A DNA stretch of 17,203 nucleotides from Paracoccaceae bacterium (GTDB lineage Bacteria; Pseudomonadota; Alphaproteobacteria; Rhodobacterales; Rhodobacteraceae): contig PWWF01000130.1 of assembly GCA_003561595.1 (NCBI GenBank), positions 1 to 17,203 of the forward strand, written 5' to 3'. Position numbers and translations under genes: made by a program. Positions 234 through 4,677 of this stretch are shown here, piece after piece. Position 1 is the first letter of the stretch. Each line of letters opens with the position of its first letter. The notes beneath the pieces are model-generated. The model did no database searches and was not told where the DNA came from. It worked only from the letters and a program-made list of their open reading frames with translations.

Positions 234-234
234 C
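220..234 (-). terminator. GC hairpin at the murJ stop codon, possible terminator
   Basis: A perfect 6-base inverted repeat, GGGGGC (220-225) and GCCCCC (229-234), with a 3-base loop sits at the end of murJ, whose TAG stop is at 236-234. There is no T tract after the stem on the minus strand, so it does not meet the usual rule for an intrinsic terminator. Short GC hairpins directly after a stop can still stabilise a 3' end or assist Rho-independent release. The plus strand carries a run of seven G here (218-224). Confidence 0.35.
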
Positions 235-1796
235 TACCCGGTCACGTCCTTGGCCCGCGACCGCCGCAGCGCCGCGCGCATCTCACCCAGCGAGAAAGCC
301 CCGATCGCCTGCGCCAGCCCCAGATAGACCACCGACCCGCCCAGAATGATCACCAGAAGCGCCAGATAACGCCGCCCGCCCGCATCAAGCCACCCCTCGA
401 ACAGCAGGGCCAGCCCGTAGAGCGCAGCACCCATCACCAATGCCGCCAGCACGATCCGCCCCAGCCGGTAGCGCAGTTGCGCATCGATCTGCGCCGCCTG
501 CCCCATGTCGCGCGAATTGCGCCAAAGCTGCCAGACCATCACCCAGGCCGCCAGAGAGGTCGCCAGCGCCGCCGCGATAAAGCCGATAAAGGGCATCAGC
601 CCCACGGCCACGACCGCATTCACCACCATCGACACGACCGCAAAGCGAAAGGGCCGCCGCGTGTCATGGCGCGCATAATAAAGCGGCTGCAACACCTTGT
701 GCAGCACGAAAGCCGGCAGCCCCAGCGCATAGATCGCAAGCGCCAGCGCCGTGGCCTCGGTATCCGCCCCGGTCCAGGCCCCGCGCCCGAACAGGACCGA
801 CACGATGGGCTGCGCGATCACCACCAGCGCCACGGCCGAGGGCAGCGTCAGAAACAGGGCGAATTCCATCCCGCGATTGAAGGAATGCTGCCCCGCGCCC
901 GCATCGCCCGCGCGCAGGCGGCGCGAGAGCTCCGGCAGCAACACCACGCCCACCGCAATCCCCACCACGCCCAGCGGCAATTGATACAGCCGGTCGGCAT
1001 AGGACAGCCAGGACACGGCATTTTCGGTAAAGCTCGCCACCTGCCGGCCCACCAGCAGGTTGATCTGCACCACCCCGCCCGCCAGAACCGCCGGGGCGGC
1101 GATGATCGCCAGCCGCTTCAACTCGGGCGTCAGGCGCGGGCGGCGAAAGCGCATGGCAAAGCCAGCGCGGCGCACGGCGATCCACAGCATCACCAGTTGC
1201 ACGACACCCGCCACCGGCACCGCCCAGGACAGGGTCAGACCGATGGGCCAGCCCGCGCGCTCAGCCAGCAGCATCGCCGCGACAAAGACCACATTCAGCA
1301 GAACCGGGGCAGCCGCCGCCGCGGTGAAGCGCCCCACCGCGTTCAGCATCCCCGACAATAGCGCGACCAGCGAGATGAAGAAAATATAGGGAAAGGCCAC
1401 GCGCCCGAACAGCACCGCCATGTCGAACCGGTCATCCTGCGCGAACCCCGCCGCCATCGCCCAGACCAGCAGCGGCATCGCGATCACGGCCAGCACCGAG
1501 AAGACCAGCAACAGCGCGGCCATGCCCCAGAACGCATCGCGCGCGAAATCCTCGGCTGCCTCGCCCGCTTCATGCTTCTTGGCAAACATCGGCACGAAAG
1601 CGAAGTTGAATGCCCCTTCGGCAAAGAAACGGCGGAACATGTTGGGCAGGGAGAACGCCACGAAAAACGCGTCCGTCACTGGCCCCGCGCCCAGATAGGC
1701 GGCCATCATCACATCGCGGACAAAGCCGAAGACCCGGCTGAGCAGCGTCCAGAGCCCCACGGTCACAAATCCCGCAACCAGCCGGATCCGCGCCAT
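234..1796 (-). CDS. murJ: MurJ, lipid II flippase
   Basis: Integral inner-membrane protein of the MurJ/MviN family (MOP exporter superfamily). It moves the undecaprenyl-linked peptidoglycan precursor lipid II from the cytoplasmic to the periplasmic face. The 520 residues match the family length and are largely hydrophobic, consistent with about 14 membrane segments. The N-terminal signature is clear: SRVFGFVRD (20-28), TDAFFVAF (41-48), and LPNMFRRFFAEGAFNFAFVP from residue 50. R21, R27, D42, R55/R56 and E60 line up with the charged cavity residues of E. coli MurJ known to be needed for function. The start ATG at 1796 leaves a normal N-terminus; the leader has only a weak GGCGGG-type ribosome site. 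The gene follows glnD after 112 bases that contain a large hairpin, so co-transcription with glnD is uncertain. Family call is firm. Confidence 0.95.
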   Translation of the reverse strand: MARIRLVAGFVTVGLWTLLSRVFGFVRDVMMAAYLGAGPVTDAFFVAFSLPNMFRRFFAEGAFNFAFVPMFAKKHEAGEAAEDFARDAFWGMAALLLVFSVLAVIAMPLLVWAMAAGFAQDDRFDMAVLFGRVAFPYIFFISLVALLSGMLNAVGRFTAAAAAPVLLNVVFVAAMLLAERAGWPIGLTLSWAVPVAGVVQLVMLWIAVRRAGFAMRFRRPRLTPELKRLAIIAAPAVLAGGVVQINLLVGRQVASFTENAVSWLSYADRLYQLPLGVVGIAVGVVLLPELSRRLRAGDAGAGQHSFNRGMEFALFLTLPSAVALVVIAQPIVSVLFGRGAWTGADTEATALALAIYALGLPAFVLHKVLQPLYYARHDTRRPFRFAVVSMVVNAVVAVGLMPFIGFIAAALATSLAAWVMVWQLWRNSRDMGQAAQIDAQLRYRLGRIVLAALVMGAALYGLALLFEGWLDAGGRRYLALLVIILGGSVVYLGLAQAIGAFSLGEMRAALRRSRAKDVTG

Positions 1797-1820: not shown

Positions 1821-1899
1821 GCCCGCCTGCGCGCGCCTTGGCAGCGGCGCGCGGGTGGGTGGGTGGGGCGTGCCGCTGCCAGGGCGCGCGCAGGCGGGC
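1821..1899. repeat. Long inverted repeat between glnD and murJ with G-quadruplex loop
   Basis: The left arm 1821-1848 and right arm 1872-1899 are reverse complements over 28 bases with a single difference (T1838 opposite G1882, a wobble on the plus strand and an A/C mismatch in the minus-strand transcript). Pairing can continue inward with G1849/T1871, C1850/G1870, G1851/C1869 and C1852/G1868, giving about 32 pairs and leaving a loop of exactly 15 bases, 1853-1867. The repeat fills most of the glnD-murJ spacer. In the glnD-murJ transcript the loop would be C-rich. No T tract follows on the minus strand, so a classical terminator is not indicated, although such a stem could block RNA polymerase, protect a 3' end or form a cruciform. 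A 9-base copy of the outer arm, GCCCGCCTG, also occurs at 1801-1809, 20 bases from the same string at 1821-1829. Confidence 0.9.
1853..1868 (+). other. G-quadruplex motif, four G runs with single-T loops
   Basis: The plus strand reads GGGTGGGTGGGTGGGG. Four runs of at least three G separated by single T residues are the pattern known to form very stable parallel three-layer quadruplexes in vitro. It occupies precisely the tip of the long hairpin at 1821-1899. The minus strand, which matches the glnD-murJ mRNA, is C-rich, so a quadruplex would form in the template-strand DNA or in any plus-strand RNA. Motif presence is certain; folding in the cell is inference. Confidence 0.85.
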
Positions 1900-1908
1900 C
1901 GCCCCGCA

Positions 1909-4677
1909 TCAGCGCCTGGCCCGTTCGGCAGCCGCGGTGATCGCGGCGCGCAGCTTGCGCTCCAGCGCGTCCTGCTTGGCTTTGGCGTGCAGTTTCAATC
2001 CGAACATGTCCTTGACATAGAATGTATCGACAGCCTGCACGCCATAGGTCGCAATCACGGCACTTGCAATCGAGATATGCGCATCCGCCAGCGTGCGCGC
2101 CAGATCATATAGCAGCCCCGGACGGTCGCGTGTATCAACCTCTATAATCGTATAGATTTCAGAACCTTCATTGTCGAAGCTGATATTCGTGGGGACACGG
2201 AAGGCGCGCTCGCGCTTACGCACCTTGTCGCGGTCGGCCAGCGCCTCTTCCGCGACCACCTCACCCGCCAGCGTGCGCGCGATCATCTTGCGCAGACGGT
2301 CCAGACGCGCGGTCTCATAGGGGTGGCCCTCGGCGTCCTGCACCCAGAACACCGCCGTCGCGATGCCGTCCTTGGTGGTATAGGTGCGCGCATCGACGAT
2401 ATTCGCCCCCACCAGCGCCAGCGCGCCCGCAAAGCGCGCGAACAGCCCCGGATGATCCGACAGCACGAAACACGCCCGCGTCGCGTCGCGGTCAGGGTCG
2501 GGATGCAGGTCGATGCGGATCTCATCCGCGCCCAGATGGCGCAACAGCCCGGCAAAGACCAGATGCGTGTCCAGTGGCAGCCCCTGCCAATAGGGGTCAT
2601 AATGGCGCGCAAGTTCGGCCCGGCGCTCGGCGGGCGTCCACGCTGTCAGCGCGCCGCGCAGGGCGCGCTTGGCCTCGGTCGCGCGGTTCTCGCGGTTCAG
2701 CGCCTCCAGCCCGTTTTCCAGCGCATGCGCCGTCTCGCGATACAGCGTGCGCAGTAGCTGTGCCTTCCAGTTGTTCCAGGTGCCTGGCCCCACCCCGCGA
2801 ATATCGCAGACCGTCAGCGCCGTCAGCAGGTCCAGCCGCTCGCGCGTTTTCACCAGCTTGGCGAAATCACGCAGCGTGCGCGGGTCCGAGATGTCGCGCT
2901 TCTGCGCCGTATCGGCCATCAGCAGGTGATAGCGCACCAGCCATTCGACCGTTTCGCATTCGCTGCGGTTCAGGCCCAGACGCGGGGCAACCTTGCGCGC
3001 GATCTGCGCGCCCAGGATCGAGTGATCCTCGGGCCGTCCCTTGCCGATATCATGCAGCAAGAGCGCCACATACAGCACCCTGCGGTTCACCCCCTCGCGC
3101 AGGATGCGCGAGGCGACGGGCAATTCCTCAACCAGTTCCTCGCGCTCGATCTGCGCCAATGTGCTGATGCACTGGATCGTATGCTCATCGACCGTATAAT
3201 GGTGATACACGTTGAATTGCATCATCGCCACGATCGGCTCGAATTCGGGGATGAACGCGCCCAGCACGCCCAGTTCGTTCATCCGCCGCAGCGCGCGCTC
3301 GGGGTTCGAATGCTTGAGCAGCAGGCGCAGGAACAGGCGCCGCGCCTCGGGCGTGTTGCGCAGCCGGTCATCGAACAGATGCAGATTGGCCGCGACCAGC
3401 CGCATCGCATTTGGGTGCAGCAGAAAGCCGGTGACCAGCCCTTCCTCGAACAGGCGCAACAGATTGATCGGCTCTTTCAGGAATTCCTCGGCGTCTTCGA
3501 TATCCAGACGGTTCTGCACCACTTTAAGACCGTAGCGCATCTTCTTGCGACGATTGAGGAAATGCCGCAGGATCGGCTCTCGCTTGACATGCCGCGCTTC
3601 CAGTTCCGTCAGGAAAATCCGCGTGAGATCGCCGACATGGGTGGCATGGCGGAAATACTCCTGCATGAAATGCTCGACGCCGCGCCGCCCGCCATGGTCG
3701 GTATAGCCCATCCGCTCGGCCACACCCACTTGCAGATCGAAACTCAGCTGCTCGACCGCGCGGCCTGACAAGTGGTGCATATGGCAGCGCACGGCCCAGA
3801 GGAAGGTCTCGGCATCGCGGAAAATCTCGTATTCCTCGGCCCGGAAGAACCCCAGCGCCACAAGCTCGGCGGCCTGATCGACCTCATGGATGTATTTCGC
3901 GATCCAGTAGAGGGTCTGCAGATCGCGCAAGCCCCCCTTGCCTTCCTTGACATTGGGTTCCAGCAGATAGCGCTGATTGCCGATCTTCGCGTGCCGTGCG
4001 GTGCGCTCGGACAGCTTCATCTCGACGAAATCGGCATGGGTTTTCGCGAACAGTTCCGCCCACAGGCGGCTGCGCAGGGTCTGGGCCAGCGGGGCATTGC
4101 CCCACAGGAACCGATGTTCCAGCAGCGCGGTGCGGATCGTGACATCCTCGCGCCCCAGTCGCAGGCATTCATCGACCGTGCGCGTGGCATGGCCGACCTT
4201 CAGCTTCATGTCCCAGAAGATATAGAGCGCCGATTCGATCACCTGTTCCACCCGGCCCGTCACTTTCCAGGGCAAGAGGAACAGCAGATCGATATCGGAA
4301 CAGGGCGCCATTTCGGCGCGGCCGTAACCGCCCACCGCCAGCGCGGCGATGCGCTCACCCTCGGACGGCATCGGGTTCGGGTGCAGGTCCGTCTGCACGA
4401 TATCCAGCACCAGACAGACGATCTGATCGGTCAGCCAGCTATTGGCACCGACAAAGGCGCGCGCATCGCGCGGATGGGCGACAAACAGCGCCTCCAGCCG
4501 GTCCGATGCCGCGCGCAGGGCGTCGCGCAGCGCGGCGGCCACGTCGCGCCTGCGCGATGCGCATTCGGCGCCCGCATTCGCGGCCAATATCTCGCGCAGG
4601 CGTGCGCGCAGGGCGCCGACATCCAGCACCTGATGGGGCGGAAAGAACGCCGCCGCCGCATCGGGCATGGGGACCAT
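1909..4677 (-). CDS. glnD: GlnD, bifunctional PII uridylyltransferase/uridylyl-removing enzyme
   Basis: Cytoplasmic nitrogen sensor that adds UMP to PII proteins (GlnB/GlnK) when glutamine is low and removes it when glutamine is high. All expected domains are present in 922 residues. The nucleotidyltransferase domain carries GGYGRAEMAPCSDIDLLF from residue 116, with D128 and D130 as metal ligands. A helical linker follows (PNVKEGKGGLRDLQ, 241-254). The HD hydrolase domain has YHHYTVDEH (491-499) and LLHDIGKGRPEDHS (540-553, H542/D543). Two C-terminal ACT domains begin near DHPGLFARFAGAL (741-753) and RDRPGLLYDLARTLADAHI (850-868) and would bind glutamine. The ATG at 4677 is used here; an in-frame ATG three codons later is also possible. 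It starts 32 bases after the upstream LpoA-like gene, consistent with one transcript. Confidence 0.97.
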   Translation of the reverse strand: MVPMPDAAAAFFPPHQVLDVGALRARLREILAANAGAECASRRRDVAAALRDALRAASDRLEALFVAHPRDARAFVGANSWLTDQIVCLVLDIVQTDLHPNPMPSEGERIAALAVGGYGRAEMAPCSDIDLLFLLPWKVTGRVEQVIESALYIFWDMKLKVGHATRTVDECLRLGREDVTIRTALLEHRFLWGNAPLAQTLRSRLWAELFAKTHADFVEMKLSERTARHAKIGNQRYLLEPNVKEGKGGLRDLQTLYWIAKYIHEVDQAAELVALGFFRAEEYEIFRDAETFLWAVRCHMHHLSGRAVEQLSFDLQVGVAERMGYTDHGGRRGVEHFMQEYFRHATHVGDLTRIFLTELEARHVKREPILRHFLNRRKKMRYGLKVVQNRLDIEDAEEFLKEPINLLRLFEEGLVTGFLLHPNAMRLVAANLHLFDDRLRNTPEARRLFLRLLLKHSNPERALRRMNELGVLGAFIPEFEPIVAMMQFNVYHHYTVDEHTIQCISTLAQIEREELVEELPVASRILREGVNRRVLYVALLLHDIGKGRPEDHSILGAQIARKVAPRLGLNRSECETVEWLVRYHLLMADTAQKRDISDPRTLRDFAKLVKTRERLDLLTALTVCDIRGVGPGTWNNWKAQLLRTLYRETAHALENGLEALNRENRATEAKRALRGALTAWTPAERRAELARHYDPYWQGLPLDTHLVFAGLLRHLGADEIRIDLHPDPDRDATRACFVLSDHPGLFARFAGALALVGANIVDARTYTTKDGIATAVFWVQDAEGHPYETARLDRLRKMIARTLAGEVVAEEALADRDKVRKRERAFRVPTNISFDNEGSEIYTIIEVDTRDRPGLLYDLARTLADAHISIASAVIATYGVQAVDTFYVKDMFGLKLHAKAKQDALERKLRAAITAAAERARR

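Follow-up and report, generated by a model that had tools for sequence, protein, structure and literature searches.

The genes glnD and murJ follow each other on the minus strand of a 17,203-nucleotide stretch of DNA from a member of the Rhodobacteraceae (contig PWWF01000130.1), the whole of which we refer to as the window. Their spacer measures 112 bp, from the 3' end of glnD at 1909 to the start of murJ at 1796, and contains a long hairpin (Table 1). A repeat search of the window returned this hairpin as an inverted repeat at 1821-1899 with arms of 32 nt that are 94% complementary and lie 15 nt apart, which bears out the first-pass annotation of this DNA, in which a long hairpin with a 15-base loop of four GGG runs had been described. 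Only two pairs of the stem, 1838/1882 and 1849/1871, depart from Watson-Crick pairing, and both are G·T on the plus strand.

Table 1. Features of the glnD-murJ region of the window
Feature	Position	Strand	Remarks
Hairpin 5' arm, read on the G-rich strand	1821..1852	+	30 of 32 pairs Watson-Crick with 1868-1899, two G·T
Hairpin loop GGGTGGGTGGGTGGG, quadruplex motif with four GGG runs	1853..1867	+	
Hairpin 3' arm, ending 9 nt short of the glnD stop codon	1868..1899	+	
glnD (PII uridylyltransferase), 3' end adjoins the hairpin	1909..4677	-	Pfam GlnD PF08335
murJ (lipid II flippase), next gene in the same direction	234..1796	-	Pfam MurJ PF03023

The GGG runs of the loop are separated by short spacers and make up a four-run, three-layer quadruplex motif. 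Since both genes lie on the minus strand, the G-rich strand is the template strand for each of them and the message would carry CCCACCCACCCACCC. The hairpin is GC-rich and stands just past the stop codon of glnD, a terminator-type position; a U-tract after the stem is absent from both strands at this copy, and Rfam gave no match up to E = 1 for positions 1500-2300 of the window.

The annotation had also judged the hairpin unlikely to be a product of chance and suspected a genuine structure, and both judgements are upheld. The exact loop never appeared in 200 dinucleotide shuffles of the window, and motifs of the GGGN type arose at 0.015 per shuffled window, equivalent to about 3 expected per genome against 72 found. 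Folded as DNA, the window hairpin has a z-score of -5.3, with an equally good fold in one of 200 shuffles.

A dispersed class of hairpins

The search of the whole genome that the annotation had proposed was carried out on the 440 contigs (3.3 Mb) of the organism's assembly. The exact loop occurs 12 times, on every occasion as the loop of a hairpin with at least 13 matched pairs, and 72 motifs are found when any one-base spacers are allowed (the GGGN type), 70 of which fall outside genes as called by a simple, hexamer-scored ORF caller that uses no annotation. Once two duplicates at contig ends are dropped, the 72 motifs reduce to 70, which script rules of our own divide into type A (29), type B (28), type C (5) and others (8). 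In type A the stem adjoins the loop directly. Type B carries a conserved AGCGCCCGC...GCGGGCGCTT stem, mostly with a variable small hairpin ahead of it; the conserved AGCGCCCGC/GCGGGCGCT stem is seen at many loci of the genome (L088, L102 and L106 near 875, for example), and the G strand is T-rich downstream of it in a terminator-like manner, so that type B copies, unlike the window copy, do possess a U-tract. In type C (L112, L114, L116, L118 and L125) a variable outer stem encloses a small, variable inner hairpin, with the quadruplex on the 3' side; the relatives G020 and G021 seem to have this form more often than the others.

A wider collection of 230 distinct motifs, 15 of them poly-G, was assembled from the genome's own motifs, from GC-preceded motifs of 37 genomes of the genus and from finds in other searches, so that it includes some motifs of other genera and is not a census. 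An adjoining stem is present in 137 of these motifs, against 1.6% when the arms are swapped between copies. In an 800 kb sample from two relatives, nine hairpins scored 16 or more; the best of them, at 30.4, has a quadruplex loop, the runner-up scored 23.4 and the other seven scored below 18.

Counting the window's own genome, 10 of 149 genomes of the family have the exact loop; outside the family it is missing from all 237 alphaproteobacterial genomes (of 241 searched, four proved to be family members). Carriers of the exact tip include one Natronohydrobacter MAG and three Rhodobacteraceae MAGs; the tip is missing from viral contigs, which were searched with one pattern. Elsewhere in the family the motif sits in a hairpin in G129 (7 of 7), in G111 (3 of 3, one slightly below the cut-off) and also in G122, G123 and G141; the hairpin around it is weak in G136 and was not found in G142 or G161. 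The genome G096, of another genus, has 72 exact loops against the 12 of the window's genome, and many of its inspected copies (loci L135-L157 and L307-L325) share a near-identical, type-B-like palindrome and occur in both orientations per contig; this set may be a relative that has spread separately.

Hairpins of the class also turn up at the ends of contigs, for example at L026 1-40 and in G003, G005, G008, G010, G012, G029, G030, G032 and G034. By hand count, in which two of the nine places repeat others, the organism's assembly has nine of its 72 motifs no more than 75 bp from a contig end, against about 1.4 expected; among motif rows from other genomes the figure is 11 of 104. The excess fits with structures that hinder sequencing or assembly, and shared sequence alone could suffice.

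Variable arms and the strand that folds

The arms of these hairpins differ from copy to copy while their pairing stays. Among the 29 type-A copies of the genome, the 3' arms past the tip share 37% identity from one copy to another, and pairing inside each copy is 93%. In 11 of the organism's copies, chosen for gapless stems (two further copies were omitted for gaps), 97% of the aligned cells are paired and 20 of 24 pairs are double-changed; sliding the arms lowers the pairing to 35-46%. The glnD-murJ locus itself gives the same picture in six species (the window's own, G015, G003, G030, G016 and G035), where 96% of the cells are paired, against 36-43% in the sliding control, and 15 of 21 pairs are double-changed. 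A count of double transversions to double transitions (15:6) was discarded, seven of the double changes having come from a single pair in which an indel had shifted the register. Of the loops at these six sites, two are exact, two have a C in place of one spacer T, and in G003 and G035 a G to A change breaks one run. A seventh glnD-murJ copy, in G032, has the exact loop and is severed by a contig end, and in G012 the contig starts with a G run at the loop; in the other members of the genus whose glnD-murJ spacers were inspected, which include only part of the loci fetched on the opposite strand, a different ORF or sequence is present and the hairpin is absent.

The comparison of glnD-murJ spacers for which the annotation had called thus finds arms that covary and a G-rich loop in six species, with a run broken in two of them. 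It had named absence from relatives combined with a lack of further copies in the genome as the outcome that would count against the structure; the opposite was found on both points.

Orthologous copies at other loci, among those listed, are often alike in having a paired stem with changed arms. Between the window and G015, whose flanks are 85% identical, gaps of 2 nt and 1 nt lie at mirrored places in the two arms, and a mirrored indel is also present between the C111 copy and G012. Such mirrored indels suggest that one arm is copied to the other. Mirrored arm changes are clear in two of the 18 orthologue pairs listed and looser in a third, and in several close pairs the stems are unchanged or changed on one side. 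At phnI-phnJ (L002 1501-1515, contig C25 of the window's genome G000; orthologues L170, L186, L187, L242, L256 and L258) the hairpin stands immediately ahead of the ribosome-binding site of phnJ; its 16-bp stem recurs unchanged in several of the species that were compared, in contrast to other copies.

The mismatches that remain in the stems bear on which strand folds. Read on the G-rich strand, and leaving aside the six pairs at the tip, they comprise 74 G·T and 12 A·C, against ratios of 1.2-1.7 to 1 for slid arms. Type-A copies taken once per locus give 37 G·T and 5 A·C (p = 3e-5 against 0.58), and type B, with 4 G·T and 1 A·C, is uninformative by itself. Forty-eight terminator hairpins gave 7 G·T and 8 A·C, a weak control in which convergent hairpins were counted from both sides and one hairpin is itself of the quadruplex kind. 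The fold that is maintained thus appears to be that of the G-rich strand, in the template DNA or in a counter-transcript. A dedicated counter-RNA is unlikely at the window locus, where murJ lies just 24 nt from the stem. The same bias could also be a residue of template switching by the nascent strand. The annotation's proposal that the hairpin protects the 3' end of the glnD message is disfavoured, in that the mismatch pattern favours the fold of the opposite, G-rich strand.

We consider it nearly certain that the Rhodobacteraceae have dispersed hairpins of this class, intergenic and tipped by a quadruplex motif, and that the hairpin is kept. Of the annotation's suggestion that the window hairpin is a copy of a dispersed palindromic repeat, the dispersal stands and the copying does not, the arms of type A being too dissimilar to be copies of each other.

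Orientation relative to genes and replication

Placement was tallied with one copy per locus over 144 loci, both neighbours being called in 123. Where the flanking genes are co-directional, the C-rich strand is the sense strand at 49 loci and the G-rich strand at 14 (p = 1e-5). Convergent spacers hold 56 loci and divergent spacers 4, against a background of 64 convergent and 98 divergent in spacers sampled from two relatives. For the 63 stem-bearing C-sense copies the distance from the end of the 3' arm to the end of the gene has a median of 14 and ranges from -3 to 405, and in the pooled base composition of the 137-copy set neither flank of the stems is marked by a U-tract. A shared tip of four GGG runs, stems that differ between copies and yet remain paired, and the usual position just behind a gene end together suggest that the structure is kept and that its stem is rewritten by some form of copying.

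In four genomes the orientation also follows GC skew. The leading strand was assigned from this skew, taken in G020 and G021 from twenty 20-kb samples per genome, rather than from mapped origins, for 23 copies in four genomes of three genera, a set to which the 17-kb contig of the window does not belong. All 23 have their G-runs opposite the skew-defined leading strand (G021 7/7, G020 6/6, G129 7/7, G111 3/3), though one of the G111 copies adjoins a sample of mixed skew. Four motifs of G020 were omitted, two near the skew minimum, one stemless and one on another replicon; the two near the minimum would also follow the rule with an origin below 417 kb. Third-position skew around 112 type-A copies is in line with this, at +0.079 for genes opposite the G strand (leading reference 0.076) and -0.021 for genes along it (lagging reference -0.010), and is less clear for type B (+0.070 and +0.028).

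These four genomes have 25 copies in all, which by their neighbours are C-sense (16), G-sense (5), convergent (2) or divergent (1); for the remaining one only the upstream neighbour was called. The skew rule is obeyed by four of the five G-sense copies, which belong to the 23, so that replication and not transcription is the common factor; gene direction as the only cause of the orientation is thereby ruled out. The rule is not universal, both orientations being present inside single contigs of G096, and very probably holds in the window's genus. The constant part of these elements is their shape, in which four GGG runs cap a long paired stem, and, within the genus, the strand; the sequence of the stem is free.

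How the hairpins may arise and what they may do

We propose that the hairpins are replication-polar boundaries at the 3' ends of genes whose arms are rewritten by template switching on the leading strand, and put the probability of both layers together at roughly 0.36. The G-rich strand, which would be the leading-strand template and usually also the template of RNA polymerase for the abutting gene, would fold into the hairpin and its quadruplex. The structure would slow or stop RNA polymerase past the gene (here glnD, ahead of murJ); such a block, which the annotation had listed among its possible roles, would fit the placement at gene 3' ends, though there is no U-tract. A quadruplex on the leading template would also be a natural stall point for DNA synthesis, and at an occasional stall the nascent strand may switch template and copy one arm onto the other, whereby the pairing would stay and the sequence drift. 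Replication may then determine the orientation, through a preference of switching for the leading strand, through intolerance of quadruplexes on the opposite template, or through both.

The two layers would account for different observations. Template switching, to which we give an even chance, would explain the free arms, the mirrored changes and the orientation and not the kept loop; the boundary role, a tentative proposal in itself, would explain the kept loop and the placement. According to published work, template switching both gives rise to hairpins and corrects them, with a leading-strand preference in E. coli (PMC8794818, PMC7202029), and induced quadruplexes are reported to cause local termination of transcription (PMC3737545). 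Other results from E. coli speak partly against both layers: the instability of (G3T) repeats rose up to 350-fold when the non-template strand was the G-rich one (R-loops), no large leading/lagging bias in mutation was seen, and the work does not lend support to quadruplex folding on the template strand (PMC7023247). Nor can blocking the polymerase of the adjacent gene be the role of the five co-directional G-sense copies, or of the copy with only its upstream neighbour called, as their G strand is not that gene's template; two of the six glnD-murJ loops have a broken run, so that this locus can do without a fully intact quadruplex, and a full terminator would be odd inside the gene pair phnI-phnJ.

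The mutational part of this proposal might be sufficient without any host function, with G-runs on the leading template stalling the polymerase, template switching building and maintaining the palindrome, and copies surviving only where they are harmless. The free arms, the mirrored indels, the orientation against GC skew and the broken run in two orthologous loops are all expected on this account, as is survival at gene 3' ends and not at promoters, with 4 divergent loci against 56 convergent. The loop, however, has come through with little or no damage at orthologous sites where neither arms nor spacers can still be aligned, which implies selection on the loop, and the phnI-phnJ locus retains its stem as well; we regard a purely mutational by-product as somewhat unlikely. 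About as doubtful is a bolder form of the proposed mechanism, in which a self-building quadruplex seed on the leading template endlessly rewrites its own palindrome, has been adopted by the Rhodobacteraceae as a replication-polar boundary of gene ends and is inherited as shape and strand, with no fixed stem sequence.

The hairpin might instead act in the message, a C-loop hairpin in the 3' untranslated RNA terminating transcription or shielding the transcript from exonucleases as intercistronic hairpins do. The nearness of stop codons, the many copies between convergent genes and the copy between phnI and phnJ would suit such an element. The missing U-tract on both sides would not, and a G·T pair on the G-rich strand becomes A·C in the message, a bias that C-sense copies display as well (38 G·T to 8 A·C); on these grounds we have demoted this reading and hold it to be unlikely.

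A mark of polarity for replication, segregation or recombination, orienting a motor or a nuclease, would sit well with the 23 of 23 copies aligned with replication, but the copies are few (15 stem-bearing ones on the main chromosomes of the complete relatives G020 and G021), they are tightly linked to gene ends and the strand rule fails in G096. KOPS and Chi, moreover, are unlike these hairpins, being G-rich on the leading strand and requiring no hairpin, and we think such a mark very unlikely. Spread of a REP-like mobile palindrome by a Y1 transposase is the least probable of these readings, since, for all that the elements are dispersed, that the genome has an IS200-like Y1 transposase ORF (L158 1077-1436, contig C167 of G000) and that stems are conserved in type B and in many of the inspected G096 copies, the type-A arms are unrelated, so that copying could have involved no more than the 15-nt loop and a short tip, and the transposase contig carries none of the 72 motifs. 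For type A, the arm identities led us to reject a mobile repeat comprising the whole hairpin.

The hairpins share features with several known systems. Like REP elements, associated with RAYT transposases, they are dispersed and extragenic; REP stems are conserved copies, unlike the type-A 3' arms past the tip. The quadruplex at pilE of Neisseria gonorrhoeae, with three layers and one-base loops, is a single locus tied to antigenic variation; the motif is of the same type and the copies described here are dispersed over many unrelated loci. Intrinsic terminators whose loops are conserved while their stems vary are likewise close to stop codons and enriched between convergent genes; they differ in that our hairpins have a 15-nt G-rich loop in place of a tetraloop, stems of 16-41 positions (median 27) and no U-tract, and in that the fold which appears to be kept is that of the antisense strand. 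With quasipalindromes corrected by template switching the class has in common the mirrored, multi-base homogenisation of arms and the reported leading-strand bias, and the portions of those reports used here make no mention of a constant loop quadruplex in a genome-wide class, such as is present in our hairpins (PMC8794818, PMC7202029). The GGGNATC repeats of Xanthomonas and Nostoc are reported to be dispersed, mostly non-coding, preferentially placed in the spacers of aligned genes and rare in divergent ones, and so resemble our hairpins in their dispersed four-run motifs, spacer preference and strand preference relative to genes; they are direct repeats of a 7-nt unit, for which the available part of the account mentions no stem, and near stop codons their motif is on the sense strand, whereas ours is mostly antisense (PMC4692102). 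The heptameric unit is not matched by the window loop, in which the repeat unit is GGGT. Among the titles and abstract openings that our searches of the open-licence literature listed, none describes quadruplex-looped hairpins with variable stems.

As hairpin sites coincide with breaks in draft assemblies, contig ends at such places call for caution. Template switching can be tested directly through the mirrored arm changes and the strand rules, and the proposed reading, if true, would connect the origin and upkeep of long perfect hairpins, the strand preferences of bacterial quadruplexes and the marking of gene ends in GC-rich genomes.
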